In this document: piece by piece, positions 36,325 to 42,750 of the stretch | Numbering within the stretch: the stretch's first letter is position 1 | How the letters are laid out: every line of letters starts with the position of its first letter | Assembly: GCA_039704465.1 (NCBI GenBank) | Contig: JASFAU010000006.1 | Coordinates: 124,001-188,000 of the forward strand | Length of the DNA stretch: 64,000 bases | Direction of reading: 5' to 3' | Source of the DNA: Plasmodiophora brassicae | Lineage: Eukaryota > Endomyxa > Phytomyxea > Plasmodiophorida > Plasmodiophoridae | Position numbers and translations under genes: made by a program | Notes under the pieces: generated by a model | Databases searched by the model: none | What the model was told of the DNA's origin: nothing | The model's input: only the letters and a program-made list of their open reading frames with translations

Positions 36325-38485
36325 ATGGCGATGGCCGGCATCCTGGCCGTGCTGCTGGTCGGCGTCGGCACCGCCCAGGCAACGGAGGAGTGGGCGCGCG
36401 TCCGCAATCCGTTCCAGTCGCCCAGTGCGGCGCCGTATGCCACGTTGAAGATTGCCGTCAAACTGTCCCCGTATGCGCCCCGGATCGTCGTCACCCTCCA
36501 CGCCCGCTAAGTTGTGCCTTACGCCAGGCCGTTTGTCATGCAGGGCGATGAGGCGGGCGCGTTCACGGGGTATGAGGCTCTGGGGAGGGGGCGGGTGTTT
36601 GTGGGTTGCTGATAGCGTTACCCCGCCCAGGTTCACGATCGATATCTGGGAGCGGATGAAGTTGTCCGACTACAATGAGTACCGCGTCTATGCGACCGAC
36701 CAGGAGGTCCTTGCCGCCGTTTCCAGCGGCGTCGCCGACATTGGCATGGCGGCCATCTCTATCACGGTCCGCTCCCGGGCGCGTCAACGCTGGTGGAGAC
36801 ACTAACCCGACTGATGATGTCGCCGCAGAAGGAGCGCGAGGAGATGGGGGTTGACTTCAGCCATAGCTTCTTCGAAAGCGGCTTCCAGGTTAGATTGTTC
36901 AATGCACCGTATGGATCGTGTCGTGACGTACGATGTGTGCCAGGTCCTGACTCACAGCGACATGAGCGCTGTGACAGCCGTTGCCAAAGCACTTGGGTCG
37001 GCCATGACGTTGCTGAACGTGTTCATCCTGCTGGTCATCCTTGAACTGGTTCTATGTGTGGCGTGCGTGATATGGATTGTGGAAGTTGTCCTCTGCCCGG
37101 ACGTCTCCAAGACATTCGTCCGAAGGAGACCTGTCAAGGGGATCCTTGACGCATTCAGGTACAGATGACAACGTCGTCAATTGGTCACCCCTCCCCCTTC
37201 CCCCGCGTGCTGATCGATCCTACATAGGTGGGTTCTGCTGTCGCTGATTCGCCGCGGCCCGTCTCGACCGAATCACTGGGTCACGCGAGTCATTGCCGTG
37301 ATGCTAAACGTCCTCTCCCTGCTCGTCGTCGCGTCACTCACTGCCTACCTGACAGCACTCGGTACGGGTTGTTCATCATAATCGCAAGGCAGGTTCATTT
37401 GACGATTGCTGTCGCATGAATAGCCATGCGGGTATCAGCAGCCTCGACAATACAGGGTATCGATGATCTCCATACGCGGTCGGTTGGCACCACGAAGGGC
37501 TCGACGGCCGAGGTGTTCCTGCGAAAGCAGGTCCGTTTGCTGGACTGGTGTGGCCGACGACACGTCGTACTGATGCCTGCCACAGACTGTGTACTCGAGA
37601 ATCGTACGGTACGATAACACGGCGGCCATGTTTGCTGGCTTCAGCAGAAGGGATCTCGACGCCATCGTTTACGATTGTAATCTCCACATGCGCGCTTTGG
37701 AGTTGTCGCTGATGCCCTGCTTAGATCCGATTCTCCAGTATCACGTCATGAATGGGCAGTATTCCGACCGAGCATTGATCGTTGGGCCCATCATCAGGCC
37801 TCAGTCGTACGGGTTTGGTAAAGGCTTCGGAACCCGCCGATCTCTGCCGAACGTTGTTCTAACTGGCTAGTGGCTGGCGCGTTTCAGCCACAAGGGAAGC
37901 GGCTGGATGGGACCGTGGTAAGCTGTTGGCGCTCCGCGAGCGAATCAACCGGGCCATTCTTCTTATTCGCGACGACGACTCGTACCACTACCTGCACCAG
38001 ACGTACTTCTCCAACATCGACCGATCCGTTGTTCGCGAATCGGTGGCGACCTGGCGCACCATCGCCTGGTTCATCGGCCTCTCTGTCGTTGTCCCAGTGT
38101 CGTTATTTGCGGTCTATCACATGCAGAAGAAGGTACCGCTTACGTTAGGCGATCACTGCGCAAACCTCAGTTCATGATTGCAAAGTACAAACGGAAACGC
38201 GTCCGGGATACCTGGTTTGACGACGAGCTCGAGAACCGGCTGAGCCAGGCGAACCTGCCTGTCGATGTTCTTCTGCGAGTCGAGCAGCAGCGAGCGCTGC
38301 TGTTGCTGGCTGAGGCCGTACGCGGCGAGACGAACAAGGAACGGGTCTCCACCATGCAGTACCTATCGGAGAACAAGTTTCGTGCATCGTTGCGACAGCA
38401 ACAGCGTCGCGTTCTCGACATCCTCGACAACCGTAACCCCTACCAGCGACCCGCCTGCGACGTGCCGCCAACACCCTGTCCATAA
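36325..38485 (+). CDS. Ionotropic glutamate receptor-like channel, minimal form
   Basis: Ligand-gated cation channel. Ten exons (starts 36325, 36528, 36631, 36829, 36944, 37228, 37424, 37586, 37888, 38186) give 536 residues in one frame. A signal peptide (about 24 residues) leads directly to the ligand-binding lobe S1: LKIAVKLPFVMQGD, FTGFTIDIWERM, DIGMAAISITKERE and VDFSHSFFESGF. Then M1, a pore segment (RWVLLSLI), M3 with VASLTAYLTALA in place of the animal SYTANLAA gate, lobe S2 (GIDDLHTRSVGTTKGSTAEV, DLDAIVYDC) and M4 near residues 420-440. A cytosolic charged tail follows. The amino-terminal domain of animal and plant receptors is absent. A ligand cannot be predicted; the Arg of animal binding sites was not located with confidence. 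Confidence 0.82.
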
Positions 38486-38731: not shown

Positions 38732-39972
38732 ATGGATGCGGGCAGCATGGATGGCGATCTGCTGTCACTGTTCCTGCAGTCCAAGGCATGTGAGGCCATG
38801 CTGCTTCGTACGGCCGCCAGCGACTACTCCCTGGAACGCATCTACTTCTACCGCCATCTCTGCCTGTACCTGTCCGATACCGACCCGTACGTCCACGCCC
38901 TTCCCCGTACTGTCTCTGGCCTCAATGGTTTACACTGCCACGTAGAGAGTCGTGTCGCGAGCAGGAGAACCGCATGCTACGGCTGTTCGTCGAGGACGAC
39001 GCCGAGCATGAGGTCAACATCAGCGAGGAGCTTCGGGAGGAACTGATCGAGGATCCCTCGCAACGCGACCTGTGGGTCTGCGCCCACTGCGAGGTGTCCC
39101 ACATGATCTGCAGAGGCGAGTTCCTGGAACTGTCCATGGCGGTCACCGACCTGGTCAAGACGACCTGGCTGGAAGCGATCGCGTACACGGGACCCAACGG
39201 CGAAACAATGCAGACGATCTTCTACACGCGCCTGTTTAGCGAGATGCCCGAGGCGCGCAACCTGTTCACCTCGGGCGACATGTCCAAGCAGGAAGTCATG
39301 TTCGGGCACATCATGACCGACGCGGTCACGATCCTGACCAACTTCGAGGCCCTGGTCAAGAAGATGGCCTGGCTCGGCGAACGGCACCGCCACCTGGGCA
39401 TTGGCCACGACCATTTCGCAACGCTCGGCAGGTGCCTTGTGGACACTGTCGAAGAGGTCATCGGCCCGGTACCACGGCAGAGGCATGTCGTTTCGACGGC
39501 CGACTGATCACGACGCACAGGAGCGTTTCAACGCGGAGACGCGTTCCGCATGGGAGATGGTGTACGACCTCATGTCCACCATCATGCTGCTCGCGTAACG
39601 CTGGGCCACTCGTGCAGAGCGTTTCCGTACGCTGACAACGCTCTCAGGATCGACAAGAACAACATGGACATCCTCGGGATCACGTTGCGACATCGCGATG
39701 AATCGCGCGCAGAGAAGCCCGGGTCCAGGCGTCAGTCCAGGAAGAGGGGCAGCTGCTGTGCGACATCCACCGGGACGCCTGGCGACAACTATGTGGCAGA
39801 AGAGACGGGTTCCGACGAGCTCCGAGTCGACGTCGACGGCCAGCAACTGGCACTGCTACTCGTACCCCAACGTTTAGGACGGCGAAGGCGGCTGCTCCTG
39901 GCGGTCCTTGCTGCTCTCCTACTTGCCGTTGTTCTGATCGTTGTCGTCGTCGTCGTTGTCACACAACGTTAG
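38732..39972 (+). CDS. RGS-globin fusion with C-terminal transmembrane anchor
   Basis: Four exons: 38732-38906, 38948-39468, 39521-39594, 39648-39972; 364 residues. Residues about 8-130 fit an RGS domain: LSLFLQSKACEAMLLRTAAS with DYSLERIYFYRHL, then RMLRLFVEDDAEHEVNISEEL and IEDPSQRDLWVCAHCEV. Residues about 135-255 fit a globin: FYTRLFSEMPEARNLF with the CD-corner Phe, FGHIMTDAVTIL with a distal-type His, and LGERHRHLGIGHDHFATLG with the proximal His in the F helix. After intron 3 comes a basic linker and a strong membrane span (LLLAVLAALLLAVVLIVVVV). The soluble domains would face the cytosol. Intron 1's exact edges have an alternative. If intron 3 is retained, translation stops at 39597 and no anchor is made. 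Confidence 0.75.
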
Positions 39973-39999: not shown

Positions 40000-41240
40000 T
40001 TAGGTCGTTGTTGAACATTGCGCTTGGGCGGGTCGCTGTTCGGGAGCGTTGCGTCCCTCGACGACGGTCGTGAACGGGACCCGATGGCGCATGTACCAGT
40101 CAGGGATGGCGGCATCGATCTGACGATGAATGTCGTCGTCGAGACCGGCCAGGAACGCGACCGCTTCATCGATCGTGTCGACGGATCGGTTCGGGCGGTT
40201 GCACAGACGGTCACGAAGCGGCGGGCAACCTTGTACGGCTTTGAACAGCAATTTGACGACGTGCAACGTGACCTGGGCTCTCGTGGCATCGTGTTTCCTG
40301 GCAAACTCCATGTACAACTTGGCCAGGGCAATGGAGGCTGTAAGCGACGTCGACGTGCCTGGACTGTAGAACAGGGCGGGGTTGGCCAGCAACCCCTCCG
40401 ACGCCATCACAGCATCGGCACCGGTCACGCGCAGGCACTCGTCGATATCCTCGAAGCGTCCAATGCCGCCGTTAGCGACAACCGGAATGTCAACGGATTC
40501 CTTGATCATCCGGATCGCGTCCCAGTCGCACGCACCAACGTTCTCGCCAACGTTCTCCTTGCGCCGCCCATGAACTGTCAGCATGGAGCATCCACTGCAC
40601 AACCATCTGTTCAAAGGCATGTCTCTGCACATCCGAACAGCACACACCTGCGTTGCAAGAGGCGCGCCAGTGAAACAGTTTCCTCGATCGTGTCAAGAAG
40701 GCGGATCTTGCACGTCACCGGAACGGACAGGTTCTCGGCCAGGATCCGTACCTAACAATAGCAGTCCGTCAGGCATAAAGCGTCGTCGCGATTTGCTGAT
40801 TGATGGTTCACCATGGCTTCAATGGTGTTCCGATCCTTGAGGAGGAATGCACCATAGTTGCCACGTTTGGCGATCTTCTGTGGGCATCCGAGGTTGATGT
40901 CGACGAAATCGCACTGGTCCTGGATAAACAACGACGCTTGCAGGAGTTCCTGCGGGTCGTGCGACGCGAACTGAACGCCAAGCGGACGATCTTCAGGGCA
41001 TGTCGTGAAATTCTTCGCCCTGTACGTCTTGCATCGCGCAAACGTCGCCGCATGCAACATGGGCGACACGCACAGCTGCGCACCCAGCGACCTGGTCATC
41101 ATCCGGAACGCCAGCTCACTGCCTTCCACCATCGGCGCACACACATATCGCGGCGACCCGATCCTCCGGAAGAACGCCCATGCCGCTGACGCGTTGGACA
41201 GATCCGGCCCCACCATGACGCCCGCTGGGCACGAAGCCAC
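40000..41240 (-). CDS. DUS1: tRNA-dihydrouridine synthase, DUS1 type
   Basis: FMN enzyme that reduces uridines 16/17 of cytosolic tRNAs. Three exons (41240-40812, 40751-40648, 40594-40000) encode 375 residues. The TIM barrel signature is intact: YVCAPMVEGSELAFRMMTRS, GAQLCVSPMLHA, PLGVQFASHDPQEL, DFVDINLGCPQKIAKRGNYG with the active-site Cys, LSVPVTCKIRLLDT, SGCSMLTVHGRRKEN rejoined over intron 2, and DIPVVANGGIGRFED. A C-terminal helical extension (ARAQVTLHVVKLLFKAV) matches DUS1. The start at 41240 follows the first ATG of the frame; an ATG at 41216 would also work. Confidence 0.92.
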
Positions 41241-41526
41241 GAAGACACGTCAAGTCGTTTCGCAGTCCGCCACGGAGTCCGCCCTCGGGCTCGTTGGGGA
41301 CACTGCTGGGACTTGGCTTCACGTCGTGACGGGATCCCTCGAAGTGCAGGCCAAGATTCCACATTGCAGTTTGGTACGCTCCTTCGGCTGACCGGGAGGG
41401 CCCATCACCAATCACCCTAAACGTTTCGGCATCGTCCTATGGTCTTTTGAATAAGGTGATGAGTTAATGGATGAAAATGCCGTCGCGTTTTAGCATTATC
41501 GCGCTTGCTGAAGTGCAATAGCGGAA
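41241..41526. other. Intergenic region
   Basis: 286 bp between the DUS1 start and the ankyrin stop, both minus-strand genes. AT-rich near 41420-41520. Nothing recognised. Confidence 0.5.
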
Positions 41527-42555
41527 TTAACGCCAGCGAGTCAGAGGGCGATTCAGTAGCTCCAACAGCCACCCGGCGTACCGTTTCATCCCGCGAGCGA
41601 TACCGGATAGGAAGTTCCCGCGACCACCCAAGAGGCGCTCGACACTACGCAGCTCGCGCTCCCTAGCCAAATCCAGAGCCGTCTTCCCGTCCTGGTCTTT
41701 GAGGGAGGTATCGATTCCGCGGACCCCCACCAGTATCTCAACGACAGCGATACGCGAGTTGGCCACGGCTCTGTGCAACGGCGTCTGCTGGGCGTCATCG
41801 ACCGCGGTCACGTTGATTCTTGGGTCCAGCACCAGCAACTCGACGAGGGTGTCACGGCCCAACGATGCCGCCCAGTGCAAAGGCGTCGCCAGGTGATGGT
41901 CCTTCGGGTTGACGTCGATCCCGGTGCTGTTCAGCAACACTTTGACAACGTCAACGTTGTTCCACGTCATGGACCAGTGCAGAGCCGTTGTCAAGTCTCG
42001 GTCGCGGGCATTGACGTCGGCATCGTGGCGCTTCGCCAGCATTTCAACGATCTCTGGCTGACGACTGGCGACTGCCGCATGCAATGGCGTCTTCCGGAAC
42101 GCGTCCGGTGCATTGACGTTGATGCCTGGTGCAGTGAGCAGCAAGCCGACGATTCCCTTGTGTCCTGCAAACGCGGCGAAATGCAATGCTGTTTTCCCGC
42201 TCTTGCCATGCTCGTTGACCTTGACACCTGGCAATCGAATCAGAGACTCGACGACCGATATCTGTCCCTGACGGGCCGCCCAGTGCAGAACGTTCCCTTC
42301 GTCATCCCATGGCATGTCATTCGGAAAAGTGGCATCGCCTCCGCCAGCGAGGACGTCGCGGATCGTCTTGACAATCGTCTTCTGCGTGTGCGTAGTCGCA
42401 ATCTGAGTGAGGCGGTCGATCACGGCCACGCTATCGACGTGGACGTCAGCACCAGCGTCGCGGAGCGGGCTAGCGTCGATAGGTCCAGTGAGAACGGCAA
42501 ACAGGGCCAACAGCGCCCAGACGGCGCGCAGACAAGTGGGGTTGCTGGTCGTCAT
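41527..42555 (-). CDS. Secreted ankyrin-repeat protein
   Basis: Single exon, 342 residues. A signal peptide (residues 1-28, ending PIDA/SPLRDAG) precedes seven ankyrin repeats beginning GNVLHWAARQGQISVVESLI, each with a TPLH or TALH turn and a GINVN-type spacer. The last repeat runs into a short amphipathic C-terminus (LLGGRGNFLSGIARG). It shares repeat style with the Skp1/ankyrin gene at 4168-5751 (same HWAA and GIDVN phrases), so the two belong to one family. Unlike that gene, I see no Skp1-like segment. Predicted to be exported; the target is unknown. Confidence 0.85.
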   Translation of the reverse strand: MTTSNPTCLRAVWALLALFAVLTGPIDASPLRDAGADVHVDSVAVIDRLTQIATTHTQKTIVKTIRDVLAGGGDATFPNDMPWDDEGNVLHWAARQGQISVVESLIRLPGVKVNEHGKSGKTALHFAAFAGHKGIVGLLLTAPGINVNAPDAFRKTPLHAAVASRQPEIVEMLAKRHDADVNARDRDLTTALHWSMTWNNVDVVKVLLNSTGIDVNPKDHHLATPLHWAASLGRDTLVELLVLDPRINVTAVDDAQQTPLHRAVANSRIAVVEILVGVRGIDTSLKDQDGKTALDLARERELRSVERLLGGRGNFLSGIARGMKRYAGWLLELLNRPLTRWR

Positions 42556-42750
42556 TTCGCGTCTTCCGTGGTTGTACGCAGCAGCTCAAATATACCAAAA
42601 TGACGTCGACATGTGCCTTGCCTGGACGACGACAGAAATAGCCCGGCCTGCCGCCAACGCACGTCTGCCACTGAGCCGCTCGCGTCAGTCTTCCCGCACT
42701 TCTGGAAGTCCGAACATTGACCTGGCTCATACAAGATGACCGTGTCGGGA

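Follow-up and report, generated by a model that had tools for sequence, protein, structure and literature searches.

Predicted fusions of an RGS-like domain, a globin and a C-terminal hydrophobic span in the clubroot parasite Plasmodiophora brassicae

The window analysed here is a 64,000-nucleotide stretch of the Plasmodiophora brassicae genome (C6:124001-188000, in an assembly of 25.3 Mb and 21 contigs), and on its plus strand, at 38732-39972, lies a gene that we predict to have four exons and to encode 358 amino acids (aa). Exon 1 (38732..38886) contains the start codon and the first half of an RGS-like domain (aa 1-51 plus two bases of the next codon), aligned with the paralogues described below, and exon 2 (38946..39468) encodes the second half of this domain together with a globin as far as its G-H region, all in a single open frame. 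Helix H of the globin is encoded by exon 3 (39521..39594), while exon 4 (39648..39972) supplies a linker, a basic stretch, a C-terminal hydrophobic span (aa 337-355) and the stop codon. The three introns, at 38887..38945 (59 bases), 39469..39520 (52 bases) and 39595..39647 (53 bases), all have GT..AG ends. In the predicted protein the RGS-like domain extends over approximately aa 10-116, the globin over approximately aa 117-250 and the linker over aa 251-332, and the hydrophobic span that follows stops three residues short of the C-terminus.

Downstream of this gene, and on the opposite strand, are a dihydrouridine synthase exon (40752-41249; Dus, E=7.9e-30) and an ankyrin-repeat protein (41527-42585; Ank_2, E=8.4e-66) with a hydrophobic N-terminus that resembles a signal peptide by eye. 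Upstream, frames on the plus strand at 36800-38485 contain several hydrophobic stretches and possibly belong to one multi-span membrane protein; the four frames scanned in this region had no Pfam match over the cut-off.

Two further genes share the layout of the window gene. These paralogues, which we call B1 and B2, are tandem fusion genes approximately 1.5 kb apart on another contig, C11 (region L012 4708-7453, minus strand), each with its own introns and with the RGS domain, globin and C-terminal span in the same order. The window protein is 47% and 45% identical to B1 and B2, respectively, over its whole length, with corresponding identities of 46% and 45% in the RGS part and 53% and 53% in the globin. 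The globin of B1 and B2 also contains a 66-base stretch with GT..AG ends, no stop codon and a length divisible by three, which could be either an intron or a readable insert; in our analysis it was taken as an intron.

The composition of the predicted gene, an RGS-like domain plus a globin plus one C-terminal hydrophobic span, is confirmed by these comparisons, and the recurrence of the same layout in two paralogues bears out the order of RGS domain, globin and membrane span within one gene that an earlier note on this DNA had proposed. That note had also raised the prospect of two separate genes, and it could be argued that the fusion is an artefact of a wrong gene model joining two adjacent genes, as our model is one of 108 possible stop-free splice-site combinations that were tried, was picked for keeping both domains whole, and has splice sites that are predicted. 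However, the exon 2 frame (38947-39468) runs for 174 aa without a stop and covers parts of both domains, so that the junction between RGS and globin has no splice site, and the same order is found in the two paralogues on the other contig. Separate genes are therefore unlikely, within the terms of a predicted model, and we consider a fusion created by the model itself to be extremely improbable.

At the sequence level, comparison of the tandem genes B1 and B2 shows purifying selection in the RGS domain and in the globin, with dN/dS of 0.24 and 0.23, respectively; in the linker the ratio is 0.46. When the window copy is compared with B1 and B2, the two domains have dS values of 1.02 to 1.24 and dN/dS ratios of 0.30 to 0.56, and the tail has ratios of 0.81 and 0.91. 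These ratios are rough because dS is near saturation.

The globin domain of the window protein matches PF00042 in Pfam with E=5e-14 over aa 144-246, and the same family is matched by B1 (E=2.6e-13) and B2 (E=5.4e-12). These are the only three globin matches in the genome at E<=1, and the exon-by-exon search, at the same threshold, found no truncated globin. The best matches of the domain are F-family globins of the 3/3 fold, not S-family sensor globins. Among solved structures, the globin profile matches Hell's Gate globin I (HGbI, 3s1i) best, with E=3e-16; other matches include 4g1b (E=1.4e-11), HGbRL (E=3.2e-11) and 1gvh (E=2.4e-9). The match of the window copy to Bac_globin (E=0.15) and those of B1 (E=0.0094) and B2 (E=0.11) to Clusterin were below the cut-off and were set aside.

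Two haem-pocket histidines had been picked out in the earlier note, one proximal and one of distal type within the motif FGHIM. The first of these stands: H199 occupies position F8, and both it and the Phe at CD1 (F159) are kept in all three copies. The second does not, as His173 of the FGHIM motif is not at E7. It lies 26 residues before H199, at a position taken by Gln in B1 and B2, whereas E7 is occupied by Gln167 and B10 by Tyr145, both of which are invariant in the three copies. The assignment of E7 draws on the alignment of the three-copy profile with HGbI and HGbRL, which is gapless from CD1 to F8; the E7-F8 spacing is 32 in both of these globins, and the residue 32 before H199 is Gln167. 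When E. coli Hmp is aligned by MAFFT, Lys166 instead falls at E7, owing to a later one-residue gap, and in an alignment with neuroglobin, counted by hand, the E7 His of the latter falls opposite Glu168. We prefer Gln167 over Lys166 because the HGbI and HGbRL alignments are gapless and have the common spacing of 32. His173 as E7 is ruled out by the Hmp alignment as well as by those with HGbI and HGbRL.

The company that this globin keeps is relevant to the main alternative to a gas-gated regulator, namely a scavenger carried to Galpha by the RGS domain. Here the globin would remove NO or peroxide, or buffer O2, with a separate protein as electron donor, and the RGS domain would do nothing but target it to active Galpha, its own activity being ungated. 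The nearest relatives do include flavohaemoglobins (4g1b, 1gvh), the Tyr B10/Gln E7 pair would suit such a role, and the best NCBIfam match of B1 is to an NO-inducible flavohaemoprotein, in the globin part only and far under the cut-off (60 against 432 bits). However, Tyr G5 and Glu H23, proximal-side residues that are important in flavohaemoglobin chemistry, are present in E. coli Hmp and replaced by Phe and Ile, respectively, in all three copies, and no FAD/NAD reductase domain was matched by Pfam in the three fusion proteins at E up to 10. The replacement of these residues and the lack of a reductase domain match favour a sensor over an NO dioxygenase, and we regard the scavenger as unlikely.

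Identification of the N-terminal part is less direct. The earlier note had read the first 130 or so residues as an RGS domain, and this reading is upheld through the paralogues, which exceed the Pfam cut-off of 23.9 bits for PF00615 (B1, 38.6 bits, E=1.6e-9; B2, 40.3 bits, E=4.8e-10), whereas the window copy taken alone falls under it (13.7 bits, E=0.084). Against an HMM built from 20 other stop-free RGS domains of the same genome, out of 83 genome matches, the window copy scores 23.4 bits, whereas among 5000 shuffled versions of its first 122 residues no score exceeds 5.3. None of the three intron-split fusion genes is among the matches of the genome-wide RGS search, and the closest RGS domain outside the fusion family is at C8:28907-29110, with 43% identity over 67 residues (E=1.5e-5).

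To judge the RGS domains as regulators we considered the positions E87, N88, N128, D163 and R167 (RGS4 numbering), which we take to be Galpha-contact residues of mammalian RGS proteins. All of the 20 other RGS domains, and all three fusions, have Glu at the E87 position and Asn at the N128 position. The R167 position is filled by Arg in 18 of these 20 domains and in both paralogues, but by Glu in the window copy, while at the N88 position the 20 domains have Asn (13), Ser (6) or Gly (1), B1 and B2 have Ser, and the window copy has Arg. All three fusions carry Gly at the D163 position, where every one of the 20 others has Asn, Asp or Glu, and Leu at the F168 position, which is Phe in all 20. 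Because of the Arg at the N88 position and the Glu at the R167 position, GAP activity of the window copy may be weak or lost. Judged by these positions, B1 and B2 resemble functional GAPs more closely than the window copy does.

The same substitutions raise the alternative that the RGS part, chiefly that of the window copy, binds Galpha as a scaffold and lacks GAP activity, making the fusion a Galpha-linked haem protein or a decoy. The altered N88 and R167 positions and the low Pfam score of the window copy speak for such a scaffold, as do the Gly and Leu at two more conserved RGS positions in all three proteins. On the other hand, the dN/dS of the RGS domain between B1 and B2, the retention of the E87 and N128 positions in all three copies and that of R167 in B1 and B2 speak against it, and we hold this alternative to be distinctly unlikely.

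Over aa 337-355, the C-terminal span of the window copy has a mean hydropathy of 3.73, whereas no separate segment exceeds 1.05. In B1 and B2 the C-terminal peaks are 3.44 and 3.25, with next highest segments of 1.36 and 1.86, the last of these lying in the globin. The fusion proteins thus follow the tail-anchored pattern of a single span at the extreme C-terminus, and insertion into a membrane is predicted. Between B1 and B2 the tail has a dN/dS of 2.82 over 25 codons (seven amino-acid differences, dS 0.05). Given this high ratio, and those in the comparisons with the window copy, the hydrophobic character of the tail has been kept while its sequence has not. Among 12 RGS open frames of small RGS genes, inspected by eye, we saw no C-terminal hydrophobic span and hence no candidate for a tail-anchored ancestor without a globin.

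A globin bound to a membrane by such a tail might also sense lipid, redox state or pH, and not gas. In the available text of PMC11203436, HGbI, which matches the fusion globin best among solved structures, is described as shifting its haem coordination upon lipid binding, so that a membrane lipid could be a ligand or modulator here as well. However, HGbI is soluble and cytoplasmic, with no known role for its lipid response according to the same text (PMC11203436), and we find sensing of this kind highly improbable.

The heterotrimeric G-protein set of this genome is large. By exon-by-exon search there are at least 83 RGS matches at E<=0.001 and 82 G-alpha matches, the latter including approximately 25 loci over the cut-off when grouped by eye, and so client proteins for the RGS domain are present in the same genome. 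There are also 10 adenylate/guanylate cyclase matches. At E<=0.001 the exon-by-exon search gave no match to NO synthase, for which reason NO would need a host or other source, and at E<=1 it gave no HNOB gas-sensor domain. The terms globin, RGS, G protein, haem and heme are absent from the main text of two P. brassicae genome papers. As a side observation, the primers PBTZS-3 and PBTZS-4 sit in a run of RGS genes (C1:1034037-1034715), to which they match exactly, facing each other and spanning 398 bases end to end; PBTZS-4 is inside the RGS match C1:1034037-1034360, and PBTZS-3 is approximately 0.35 kb beyond the end of that match. PBTZS-3 has a single exact match in the genome. Both are given as detection primers for P. 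brassicae in the available part of PMC8309272, and their match agrees with the rhizarian origin assumed in the earlier note. Primer TC1F had no match, perhaps because the assembly lacks rDNA, and PBTZS-2 was absent from the two loci inspected for it.

Searches for the fusion in other organisms were negative. A protein-database search with the whole window copy (7982 candidates scored) returned nothing at E<=0.001, one with the three-copy alignment (7989 scored) nothing at E<=0.01, and none of the six candidates from a search restricted to the globin part of B1 was significant. Absence from these results is weak evidence, as the search relies on shared five-residue words and its eukaryote coverage is uncertain. 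Pattern matching picked out 45 stretches in viral contigs and 25 in prokaryote genomes, and tblastn confirmed none in either set. In the open-licence literature, the titles and abstract starts among the matches listed for globin together with RGS terms or Plasmodiophora described no RGS-globin fusion, and neither did the matches listed for RGS, G proteins or receptors together with Plasmodiophora.

What can be read directly from the predicted genes is the domain order, its occurrence in three copies, a conserved haem pocket, the retention of two key RGS positions and a hydrophobic C-terminus. Control of RGS activity by haem ligation, which the earlier note had envisaged, is plausible. We propose that the fusion regulates heterotrimeric G proteins as a globin-coupled, tail-anchored protein, in which binding of O2 or NO to the haem is passed on to the RGS domain, and on this proposal our judgement is evenly balanced. 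The globin would bind haem via His199, Tyr145 and Gln167 would face the ligand from the distal side, and binding of O2, or of NO, would move the globin between states. In the alignments the last RGS helix appears to lead almost directly, within a few residues, into globin helix A. Along this path a shift in the globin might be relayed to the RGS domain, which would then alter either the rate of GTP hydrolysis by Galpha or its hold on Galpha, at the membrane. An AlphaFold prediction of exon 2 alone, with a mean pLDDT of 47.2, gives no support for continuity of the RGS and globin helices. The relay principle is that proposed for HGbRL, except that the RGS domain is placed ahead of the globin. 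The specific form of the proposal, a gas-gated RGS protein whose RGS domain is switched at the membrane when O2 or NO binds the haem of the same chain, in a three-member family of an intracellular plant parasite for which we found no other use of the globin fold, is put forward tentatively, as we rate it slightly below an even chance. HGbI, in which the Tyr B10/Gln E7 pair is the same, has a very high O2 affinity (available text of PMC4476040), and a fusion globin of similar affinity would be ill suited to sensing O2 at ordinary levels.

If the proposal of a gas-gated regulator is true, the fused globin would provide a direct and reversible route for gas, with sensing placed at the off-switch of the G protein. 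As the clubroot parasite lives within plant roots, has many RGS and G-alpha matches, and has no other globin that we could find, the RGS-globin family would be a good test case for the sensing of O2 or host NO by this organism. The small size of the soluble RGS-globin portion would allow both spectroscopy and GTPase assays.

Fusions of globins with output domains have been described before, one of them, HGbRL, with a GTPase-regulator domain. Like the globin-coupled sensors, the fusion proteins combine a globin and a signalling output domain in one frame, and do so in the two paralogues as well. Classical globin-coupled sensors have an N-terminal globin of the S-family sensor type, whereas the globin of the fusions follows the RGS domain and is of the F family. 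The flavohaemoglobin Hmp of E. coli resembles them in its globin, which belongs to the F family and has both Tyr B10 and His F8, but contains an FAD/NAD reductase domain in place of the RGS domain and tail. HGbI shares with them the pair Tyr29(B10)/Gln50(E7) and the gapless alignment from CD1 to F8, but is a single-domain protein.

Membrane-bound RGS proteins are represented by AtRGS1 of plants, which has seven transmembrane spans. A seven-transmembrane RGS protein of Naegleria likewise places an RGS domain in a membrane protein of a non-animal eukaryote, but has seven spans and no globin in the available account (PMC9283941), as compared with the one C-terminal span of the fusions. Responses to O2 and NO have been linked to mammalian RGS4 and RGS5, the degradation of which depends on both gases. 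This operates through oxidation of an N-terminal Cys and the N-degron pathway, however, with no fused haem domain in the accessible part of that report (PMC8157222). The globin-coupled adenylate cyclase HemAC-Lm of Leishmania major is, like the role we propose for the fusion, a eukaryotic haem protein that acts in a second-messenger pathway and responds to O2, but as described in the available text it is soluble and its output is a cyclase rather than a regulator of Galpha (PMC4534343).

The closest precedent is HGbRL of Methylacidiphilum infernorum (PDB 3wfw, 3wfx), a bacterial fusion of a globin and a Roadblock/LC7 domain (PMC4476040). Its globin is of the same group, with Tyr B10 and Gln E7, and is likewise fused to a domain of the GTPase-regulator type, MglB, a relative of the Roadblock/LC7 domain, being the GAP of the GTPase MglA (PMC4476040). 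In the parts of that paper available, ligand binding shifts helix E and the CE loop of HGbRL, relay of this shift to the Roadblock/LC7 domain is proposed by its authors, and the protein is put forward as a globin-coupled sensor (PMC4476040). HGbRL differs from the fusions in that the globin comes first and the Roadblock/LC7 domain second, in that the related MglA is Ras-like and not a heterotrimeric G protein, and in that neither an RGS domain nor a membrane span is described for it in the same text (PMC4476040).
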